Shown here: one piece after another, positions 27,089 through 30,323 of the stretch
Layout of the letters: the number at the start of each line of letters is the position of its first letter
Position numbering within the stretch: the first letter of the stretch is position 1
Origin: Armatimonadota bacterium
Lineage (GTDB): Bacteria > Armatimonadota > Armatimonadia > Armatimonadales > Capsulimonadaceae
DNA length: 37,871 nt
Direction of reading: 5' to 3'
Assembly: GCA_025354405.1 (NCBI GenBank)
Contig: JANXMY010000110.1
Span: 1 to 37,871, forward strand
Notes under the pieces: model-generated
What the model saw: only the letters and a program-made list of their open reading frames with translations
Told to the model about the DNA's origin: nothing
Database searches by the model: none
Position numbers and translations under genes: made by a program

Positions 27089-28078
27089 GTGGAAATACAA
27101 GACCGAGTGGAAGCTGCGCCGCCCGTCCCGGAAGGACTCCTGGCGGTCGCGGAGATGATGCGGCTGGTCGCTGACCAGATTGAGACCGTGATTGTCGGCA
27201 AGCGCGGCGCGATCGAACTGGCTCTGACGGCCTTTCTGGCCGGGGGGCATGTGCTGATCGAAGATATCCCGGGGGTCGGCAAAACTACCCTGGCGAAAGC
27301 ACTCGCGAAAGCGCTGGGCCTGGTTTTCAAGCGGGTCCAGTTTACGCCCGACCTGCTGCCCGCCGACATCACCGGCACGACCATCTTCAACCAGAAGACG
27401 GCCCAGTTCGAGTTTCGGGAAGGCCCCGTCTTCGCGAATATCGTGCTGGCCGACGAGATCAACCGGGCGACTCCGAAAACGCAGTCCAGCCTTCTGGAGT
27501 GTATGGAAGAGCAGCAGGTGACCACGGACGGCATCACCTATAAGCTGCCCCACCCATTTTTCGTCATCGCCACGGAGAACCATATCGAATCGCATGGCAC
27601 CTACCCGCTGCCAGAGGCCCAGCTGGACCGCTTTCTGCTGCGTCTTTCGATCGGATATCCCGACGCCGAAGAAGAGAGCCGCATTCTGGCCCAGCAGACC
27701 CGCCTCAAGCCCCTCGACGCCCTGGGACCTGTGACCACCCGCGAACAGATCCTGCGCCTCCAGGAAGAGGCCCACGCCGTCTTCGTCGCCCCGGCCCTGC
27801 GTGACTACATCGTCGCCATCGTCGGCGCGACCCGCACCCATCCCCAGGCCGCCCTCGGAGCCAGCCCGCGCGGATCCCTCGGCCTTCTCCACGCCGCCCA
27901 GGCCTACGCCGCCATCGCGGGACGAACCTATGTCCAGCCCGATGACATCAAGCGCCTGGCCGTGCCTGTCCTCGCCCACCGCCTCATCCTCCGCCCCGAA
28001 ACCCGCGTCAAGCGCGTCACCGGCCCCGCAGTGATCGAAGAGATCCTCGGCCGCATTCCGGTGCCGACGTCTTTGTGA
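27089..28078 (+). CDS. MoxR-family AAA+ ATPase
   Basis: Cytoplasmic AAA+ chaperone-like ATPase of 329 aa, a normal MoxR length. Walker A is PGVGKTT (61-67), Walker B LADEINRA (~120-127), followed by the family pattern TPKTQSSLLECMEE, a sensor-1 region FFVIATENHIE, the arginine-finger area LPEAQLDRFLLR and the lid ASPRGSLGLLHAAQAYA. MoxR proteins usually help insert cofactors or mature partners encoded next door, with DUF58 and von Willebrand A proteins. None of these follows here, so its client is unknown. It starts at GTG 27089, 45 bases after greA, with only a weak ribosome site, and may be cotranscribed with greA. Confidence 0.9.
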   Translation: MEIQDRVEAAPPVPEGLLAVAEMMRLVADQIETVIVGKRGAIELALTAFLAGGHVLIEDIPGVGKTTLAKALAKALGLVFKRVQFTPDLLPADITGTTIFNQKTAQFEFREGPVFANIVLADEINRATPKTQSSLLECMEEQQVTTDGITYKLPHPFFVIATENHIESHGTYPLPEAQLDRFLLRLSIGYPDAEEESRILAQQTRLKPLDALGPVTTREQILRLQEEAHAVFVAPALRDYIVAIVGATRTHPQAALGASPRGSLGLLHAAQAYAAIAGRTYVQPDDIKRLAVPVLAHRLILRPETRVKRVTGPAVIEEILGRIPVPTSL

Positions 28079-28091
28079 AACAGGATTGGCA

Positions 28092-28159
28092 CCGGCATTT
28101 AGGTGTTGCCCTCTCGGGCCCCGGCATTTAGGTGTCGGACCCCGGCATTAAAATGCCGG
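28092..28159. repeat. CCGGCATT repeat cluster ending in a palindrome
   Basis: CCGGCATT occurs at 28092, 28121 and 28142; the first two continue identically with TAGGTGT, and the third is followed by its own reverse complement. This resembles small interspersed palindromic (REP-like) units. No transposase is nearby. Confidence 0.6.
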
Positions 28160-28452
28160 TCTATTCGGAGAAAGTCACTGCGTGACTGAGATCAACCTCC
28201 CCGCAGGGGGGCTGCTTGCCGCGTCCTATTCGTCTTTTCCTACCCCGTATTTCCACTTGGCACGAATTATGCATAGGAGGAGACTGTGAGGCCAGTCGCC
28301 TCTTGCAAGACGCGCCCTGCCCGGCACTTCTGCACCCCGCCAAGGACGGCAATTTTCTTCCTTCTCCAGAAGAGTTTGTCTTACGGAAGAGGACGGATGC
28401 AAAAGCGCCGGGTGTGGTGTTTTTTTCGCAGGGAAATTTCGCGGCAGGCGAG

Positions 28453-28458
28453 TATAAT
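28453..28458 (+). promoter_or_regulatory. -10 box placed for leaderless transcription
   Basis: TATAAT ends six bases before the ATG at 28465, so the expected transcript start coincides with the start codon. No ribosome site is present in the intervening AGCACA. No clear -35 is seen. Confidence 0.6.
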
Positions 28459-28464
28459 AGCACA

Positions 28465-28773
28465 ATGAACCTCCTCGCAAAACAAGACGAGAAAGTCCTG
28501 GATCAATCGCTGAGTGTGCTTCTGGCAACGCACGGTTATCCGCAGGTACTGGCGCACTTGGTGCGGCTCGCCCAGCGCGAACAAAAGCCAATGCCTAGTG
28601 CGAAATATCTGATGACACTGACTCCCGAGGAAAGGGAACCGTTTCTGGCCGCCGCCGCTGCCGATGCCCTGCCGCTCTACGAAGCGGACATCGCAAGACC
28701 GGAAGCGGAGCGGGTCTTGACAGCCGATCTGGAAACAGGCGATTTCCACGACTATGAGACGAGCCATGGTTGA
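28465..28773 (+). CDS. Putative antitoxin preceding a MazF/PemK gene
   Basis: Small acidic protein of 102 aa. The C-terminal half, LTPEEREPFLAAAAADALPL then YEADIARPEAERVLTADL and DFHDYE, resembles small proteins that precede MazF/PemK toxins; the disordered acidic end would suit toxin neutralisation. The N-terminal part is predicted helical (KVLDQSLSVLLATHGYPQVL) and could bind DNA or dimerise. ATG 28465 is chosen because a TATAAT lies just upstream. The stop overlaps the toxin start by eight bases (ATG at 28766), the usual antitoxin-toxin coupling. The role rests on context and resemblance; I cannot name a defined family. Confidence 0.6.
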   Translation: MNLLAKQDEKVLDQSLSVLLATHGYPQVLAHLVRLAQREQKPMPSAKYLMTLTPEEREPFLAAAAADALPLYEADIARPEAERVLTADLETGDFHDYETSHG

Positions 28774-29131
28774 TCCATAACGGGGCGAAATATGGCGTGT
28801 GGATTTCGAGCCGGTGGAAGGCTCGGAAATCGGCAAGCTCCGGCCCGCCCTCGTCATCGGTGATGAGACGCTGGGGCGTCTACCGGTACGGATCGTGGTA
28901 CGGATCGTGGTACCGATCACGGGCTGGGATACGCGTTACCGACAGTATCCGTGGATGACAGAGCTAAAGGCGAACATCGGTACCGGCTTGTCAAAAGTTT
29001 CAGCCGCAGATGCTTTGCAAATTCGCACCGTTTCTCTGCATCGGTTCCAGGAAAAGCTCGGAACACTTCCCATGGGAATCGTAGACGAGATCGCCAGCAG
29101 CATCGCGCTGTGTCTCCGGGTACCTCTTTAA
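28766..29131 (+). pseudogene. MazF/PemK-family toxin with early stop and internal duplication
   Basis: MazF/PemK toxins are small sequence-specific mRNA ribonucleases. The frame reads MVDP-stop-RGEIWRVDFEPVEGSE: an in-frame TAA (28778-28780) is the fifth codon, right before the hallmark RGEIWRVDF strand. Downstream the family is plain: LRPALVI with the conserved Arg, VVPITGWD, GLSKVSAADALQIRTV, and LGTLPMGIVDEIASSIALCL. There is also a 12-base tandem duplication, GTACGGATCGTG at 28886-28897 and 28898-28909, so LPVRIVVPIT has become LPVRIVVRIVVPIT. Restart at GTG 28799 would remove the first beta-strand. The toxin is probably inactive unless the stop is bypassed. A sequencing error at the TAA is the main alternative. 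Confidence 0.75.
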
Positions 29132-29174
29132 CAATTTCAAGCTTCTCCCCCGTATTTCCAAGTGAAAAGCTATG

Positions 29175-30323
29175 TCACAGGCTATTCGCCACCACCAGGA
29201 CATCAATACCCCGCACCTGGCGGATCAGCTTGCTGACGATCGAGCCTTGCAGGGTCTCCTGCCAGGCCGAGCGGCCGGAATGGCCGATGATGATCTCTGT
29301 GACCTGCGACTTGTGGGCGTATTCGGCAAGTGCCGCGGCGACGTCACGGCCGGTGACCTGCTCCAGACGGATATTCAGGCGTGAGGCCAGTGCGAAGTCG
29401 GTATCCAGGACTTTCTGCTGGGCGGACGAAACTTTGTCGTCGGCGACATACACGGCGACGATCTCCGCATGGAGGACGCGTGCGATGCGCCAGCCCCGAC
29501 GCAGAAGGCGGTCGGAGGGCTTGTCTGGGGAAATGCAGACCATGACGCGCTCCTGAGTCTGCCAGAGTTCGGTGACGTCGTTGTCCGCCCGGTACGTCTG
29601 CACGGAGCGGTCCACTTCCGAAGCGACTTCGCGGAGGGCAATCTCCCGCAAAGCCGACAAATTCCCCTCTGTAAAGAAGTTTGAGAGTGCCTGAGGGACC
29701 TTCTCCTGCGGGTAGACATCGCCGCGCTCCAGCCGGTGGATCAGGGCGCGGGGCGTGATATCGATGCTGACGATCTCGTCGGCCTCGCCCAGCACCCAGT
29801 CCGGCACAGTCTCCCGCACTTTAATTCCCGTGATCTGCTGCACCGTGTCGTTCAGCGATTCGAGGTGCTGGACATTCATCGTGGAAAGGACATTGATCCC
29901 TGCCGCAAGAATATCCAGAACGTCCTCGTAGCGCTTTTCATGCGGACTGCCGGGGATATTGGTGTGCGCCAGCTCATCCACCACCACCCACTTCGGGTGA
30001 CGGGCGATCACGGCGGCGGCGTCCATCTCTTCGAACGTCGATCCCCGGTACTCCATCGTCTTGCGTGGGACGATCTCCAGATCCCCGATCTGTGCCTGGG
30101 TGCCTTCGCGTCCATGGGTCACGACGAACCCGATCACGACATCCTGGCCGCGCTCGCCTTTGCGCCGGTTCGCCTCGGAGAGCATTTCATAGGTCTTGCC
30201 CACACCGGCGGCGAAGCCGAGAAAGAGCTTGAGGCGACCCCGCCCCGCTTTACGCTCTTCGCGCTGGACACGGGCTAATAACTCTTCAGGGGTCGGTTTT
30301 TTGGGGGGTTCTTCATGTGGCAT
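29175..30323 (-). CDS. kdpD: Short KdpD: KdpD plus universal stress domains, no histidine kinase
   Basis: A 382-aa protein matching the cytoplasmic N-terminal part of the K+ sensor kinase KdpD. The KdpD domain has Walker A GFAAGVGKT (36-44) and Walker B-like WVVVDELAHTN (~112-122), and the hallmark MNVQHLESLND. A universal stress domain follows (~255-380; VMVCISPDKPSDRLLRRGWR, EIIIGHSGRSAW). The four membrane helices, GAF and histidine kinase domains of full KdpD (about 890 aa) are absent; the protein ends normally at LVVANSL. Such short forms are known in cyanobacteria and Deinococcus. In Staphylococcus aureus the KdpD stress domain binds c-di-AMP; a similar role here is only inference. It starts four bases after the second kdpA, so translation is likely coupled. 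Confidence 0.9.
   Translation of the reverse strand: MPHEEPPKKPTPEELLARVQREERKAGRGRLKLFLGFAAGVGKTYEMLSEANRRKGERGQDVVIGFVVTHGREGTQAQIGDLEIVPRKTMEYRGSTFEEMDAAAVIARHPKWVVVDELAHTNIPGSPHEKRYEDVLDILAAGINVLSTMNVQHLESLNDTVQQITGIKVRETVPDWVLGEADEIVSIDITPRALIHRLERGDVYPQEKVPQALSNFFTEGNLSALREIALREVASEVDRSVQTYRADNDVTELWQTQERVMVCISPDKPSDRLLRRGWRIARVLHAEIVAVYVADDKVSSAQQKVLDTDFALASRLNIRLEQVTGRDVAAALAEYAHKSQVTEIIIGHSGRSAWQETLQGSIVSKLIRQVRGIDVLVVANSL

Follow-up and report, generated by a model that had tools for sequence, protein, structure and literature searches.

Between a moxR gene and, on the minus strand, a gene for a KdpD-like potassium sensor, the window (the whole stretch of DNA analysed, 37.9 kb) carries a small antitoxin gene and an overlapping PemK/MazF toxin frame that contains one nonsense codon. 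It makes up one complete contig (C17) in a MAG from an Armatimonadota bacterium related to Capsulimonadaceae, the genome of which amounts to 3.6 Mb in 233 contigs. The features of the locus are as follows.

27089-28078: moxR, the upstream neighbour of the PemK/MazF module
28302-28426, plus strand: palindromic leader or terminator-like element ending in a T run
28453-28458, plus strand: TATAAT box, 6 nt 5′ of the antitoxin ATG
28465-28773, plus strand: intact antitoxin gene (102 aa)
28766-28773, plus strand: toxin start and antitoxin stop, overlapping by 8 nt
28766-29131, plus strand: PemK/MazF toxin frame, open and conserved apart from one nonsense codon
28778-28780, plus strand: premature TAA at codon 5 of the toxin frame, immediately 5′ of RGEIW
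28886-28909, plus strand: 12-bp in-frame tandem duplication within the toxin frame
29175-30323, minus strand: KdpD-like potassium sensor gene, on the other side of the module

The antitoxin was assigned to no family in Pfam, NCBIfam, or PADLOC. It belongs to the type of antitoxin that accompanies this PemK group: it resembles the protein encoded beside the toxin of a relative in another genome (G080) and has the conserved C-terminal segment (YEAD...LTAD...GDFHDYE) that is common to the antitoxins of the group. The toxin ATG (28766-28768) and the antitoxin TGA (28771-28773) lie within the same 8 nt (ATGGTTGA), and the closest relative, L068 (51% identical), has an identical overlap architecture (ATGATTAA). 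A small, overlapping or adjacent antitoxin gene upstream of the toxin is the layout of a type II toxin-antitoxin (TA) operon, and similar antitoxins adjoin the toxins of relatives. From the TATAAT box, which is so close to the antitoxin ATG, a near-leaderless mRNA would be produced.

The interrupted toxin frame

The toxin frame is translated as MVDP, the stop, and then RGEIWRVDFEPVEG... (in a longer quotation, RGEIWRVDFEPVEGSEIGKLRPALVIGDETLGRLPVRIVVRIVVPITGW...). It matches the PemK_toxin family of Pfam (PF02452) with 74 bits (E 1.3e-20), above the gathering cut-off of 23.1, and among solved structures in the PDB it matches Mycobacterium tuberculosis MazF9 (E about 1e-10). Residues R21 and T47, in post-stop numbering, align with the RPA and VPVT motifs of MazF9, such that the catalytic Arg of RP and Thr of VPxT are kept. 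These residues are the counterparts of Arg25 and Thr48 of Bacillus MazF, both of which are needed for catalysis (PMC7354611). An AlphaFold2 model built from a 12-sequence alignment has a mean pLDDT of 81, and MazF structures are its best matches in Foldseek, with 6kys at the top (E 1.5e-8, TM 0.74-0.77). Judged by its sequence, the frame beyond the stop is a genuine PemK homologue rather than a chance reading frame, and the same genome has at least two further frames that match PemK_toxin (L002, L003). The window copy thus resembles the MazF/PemK/EndoA mRNA interferases, of which MazF9 (MazF-mt1; 5hjz, 6kys) is the nearest solved member, in homology over the whole frame, in its modelled fold, in the catalytic Arg and Thr, and in the antitoxin-toxin order with overlap. 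It differs from them in the codon-5 stop and a four-residue insertion, which would make it a pseudogene of the family.

The toxins of relatives begin a few residues ahead of RGE, and none has a stop at the position of the premature TAA, where they carry a sense codon, mostly for Lys or Arg. An uninterrupted frame from a start codon, as a functional toxin would have, is not found, since TAA stands at codon 5 and all upstream in-frame starts read into it. The first ordinary in-frame start past the stop is GTG at 28799, and a protein begun there would lack RGEIWR, which forms the first beta strand. Reassignment of the stop codon was ruled out, since TAA is the terminator of 7 of the 16 genes of the window. 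Beyond the premature stop, 116 sense codons precede the terminal TAA (29129-29131). A preliminary description of the locus had claimed that the toxin ATG overlaps the antitoxin stop, that TAA replaces a sense codon just before RGEIWRVDF, and that the frame is otherwise intact for more than 110 codons, and each of these claims agrees with the positions and counts given here.

The tandem duplication consists of two identical, codon-aligned copies of GTACGGATCGTG, read as VRIV VRIV, which adds four residues; Tandem Repeats Finder (TRF) lists it at 28885-28918 with 2.8 copies. It is the sole exact 12-bp tandem in the window, and an insertion at this site is absent from all 22 relatives aligned. 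The extra VRIV lies directly ahead of RIVVPIT, the strand bearing the catalytic Thr. The preliminary description had the duplication add four residues to a core strand; the duplication and its four residues stand, but damage to the strand does not, as RIVVPIT is kept intact in the AlphaFold2 model. There, one copy forms the strand (residues 41-48) and the other lies mainly in or beside a loop (residues 30-38, pLDDT <50). In the model, then, the duplication looks mild and may be tolerated. Identity of the two copies is as a recent event would predict, although 12 bp is too short for dating.

Relatives of the toxin are 32-51% identical to it. A near-identical intact copy was found neither in the same genome, nor in 291 genomes of the phylum (best 51%), nor in further genome contigs, nor in plasmids (best 46%) or viral contigs (best segment 43%). 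In a leave-one-out comparison, restricted to columns on which 90% or more of the remaining rows agree, the window frame retains 22 of 24 such columns, and other members of the family retain 19-22 of 23-25. Since its conservation equals that of its relatives, the protein shows no measurable drift since the lesion, which argues for a recent loss. The intact remainder alone would date the loss loosely, because only 3.4% of the possible single substitutions in the toxin frame yield a stop. Two observations count against decay: the rest of the frame has no lesion beyond the duplication, and the best relative, at 51% identity, is too distant for dating the loss or for dN/dS.

Five of the 22 near homologues from this phylum are themselves broken, by a TGA near the end (L007), a TAG in the core (L010), or frameshifts or truncation (L014, L076, L077). 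Decay of the PemK toxin is therefore common and not peculiar to the genome of the window. The nearest Armatimonadota PemK group (L068, L004, L005, L006, L024) is 43-51% identical to the window toxin and has a similar antitoxin C-terminal segment, but unlike the window copy its members are intact and without the duplication.

The leader element and the sister genome

The palindromic element upstream of the module occurs once in the genome of the window (28302-28426) and twice in G001, the sole genome of the same genus compared (L060 5349-5472; L048 4031-4155). All copies fold strongly (z -2.4 to -5.4) and share an invariant 18-bp core, TCTTACGGAAGAGGACGG. The element may act as a terminator or be transcribed as a leader RNA; an Rfam search gave matches at chance level only. 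A dispersed mobile repeat was considered and rejected, as the two genomes have one and two copies, with none convincing elsewhere. On its 5′ side, TTGGCACGAAT...TGCA is conserved in both species (28255-28275; L060 5304-5320) and by eye resembles a sigma-54 (-24/-12) promoter.

Several repeats also lie around the module. A 21-nt repeat (CCCCGGCATTTAGGTG) is present three times at 28085-28155, just 3′ of moxR, and is absent from the equivalent place in the sister genome. The module is flanked by a 16-bp direct repeat in near-identical copies at 28240-28255 and 29145-29160 (CTACCCCGTATTTCCA and CTCCCCCGTATTTCCA). The flanking repeat CCCCGTATTTCCA (at 28240 and 29145) was considered as an insertion footprint, and it is not present in the leader of the sister.

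In G001, homology to the window spans the end of moxR, the palindromic element, and the TATAAT box, and then stops. The shared leader is followed there by a different module, in which a DUF6932 gene is frameshifted near its end (L060 5503-5880) and a second small frame overlaps the DUF6932 stop. Some 2.6 kb is inserted after moxR in G001 (L060 2588-5275), with frames of 217 and 580 aa to which no family was assigned, and at its far end the final ~57 bp of moxR occur again, as if the insertion had restored the end of the gene. The other G001 copy of the element is on a different contig (C4), within about 30 bp of the kdpD end, and that contig then stops; a clean empty site without a TA module at this kdpD is suggestive only. 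As a tentative and rather doubtful reading of these sequences, the moxR-kdpD gap in this genus might be a slot in which different TA-type modules are swapped behind a fixed leader and promoter (the palindromic element and TATAAT) and then decay. The comparison is of one genome pair, with a PemK pair bearing a stop here and, in the sister, a DUF6932 module with a frameshift, and the G001 contigs end inside the region.

Probable loss of the toxin and retention of the antitoxin

The locus is best explained, with a probability of roughly 0.8, as a type II MazF/PemK TA operon in which a nonsense mutation at codon 5 has recently inactivated the toxin and the antitoxin is still fully encoded. Translation of the toxin would end after four residues, such that no RNase would be made and the module would no longer be addictive. 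Slippage would have duplicated the 12 bp downstream, either under relaxed selection on the toxin or independently, and the nonsense mutation would have been fixed by drift rather than by selection against the toxin. That the loss is recent, as the preliminary description held, is well supported by the sense codon of relatives, the absence of the insertion from the 22 relatives, the undrifted frame, and the recurrent decay in the family.

The main doubt, although an improbable one, is that the stop is instead an error of sequencing or of the MAG consensus, in which case the toxin would be intact with only a harmless four-residue insertion. A single base does decide the call, the remaining frame is as conserved as that of relatives, and the model tolerates the insertion. 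However, the other long frames of the contig, two of them about 2,500 codons long, have no interruption, as they would in a local consensus full of errors; the duplication is a second, independent lesion-like change in the same gene, and broken copies recur among relatives. Slightly less probable still is the proposal that the antitoxin is retained alone for its usefulness without the toxin, either as a regulator or in anti-addiction against related mobile toxins, for which a model exists (PMC2654758). Its intactness would fit, yet recent loss of the toxin leaves the antitoxin intact by default, and no sister genome was found with the antitoxin alone, only distant antitoxin homologues. The preliminary description also offered bypass of the stop as a means of holding toxin levels down, and this claim found no support. 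A real but leaky stop, with little toxin made by read-through or by restart at GTG 28799 or ATA 28790, is very unlikely, even though the frame downstream is intact and the GTG is preceded by GGGG-rich sequence. TAA is an ordinary stop in the window, no relative has a stop at this position, and restart at the GTG would drop a first strand (E2-8 in the model) that all relatives keep. Initiation at ATA is very rare, and ATA 28790 is not credible as a start.

Toxin loss with the antitoxin kept is real as sequence and ordinary as biology, a fate that is common among TA toxins and has been described before. Decay of chromosomal TA modules through nonsense mutation and drift has been covered in reviews (PMC7167474; PMC2654758), and ccdO157 of Escherichia coli and chromosomal hok-sok copies are likewise chromosomal modules that lose the toxin through point mutation (PMC2654758; PMC7167474). 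The window case differs from these in its toxin family, in its uncultured phylum, and in being known from a single genome. It adds one well-documented case, from a little-studied phylum, of a chromosomal TA toxin lost by point mutation with its antitoxin kept. That 5 of 22 near homologues are broken points to a fast turnover of such modules, and a leader shared by modules of different kinds would offer a small, testable example of cassette exchange.
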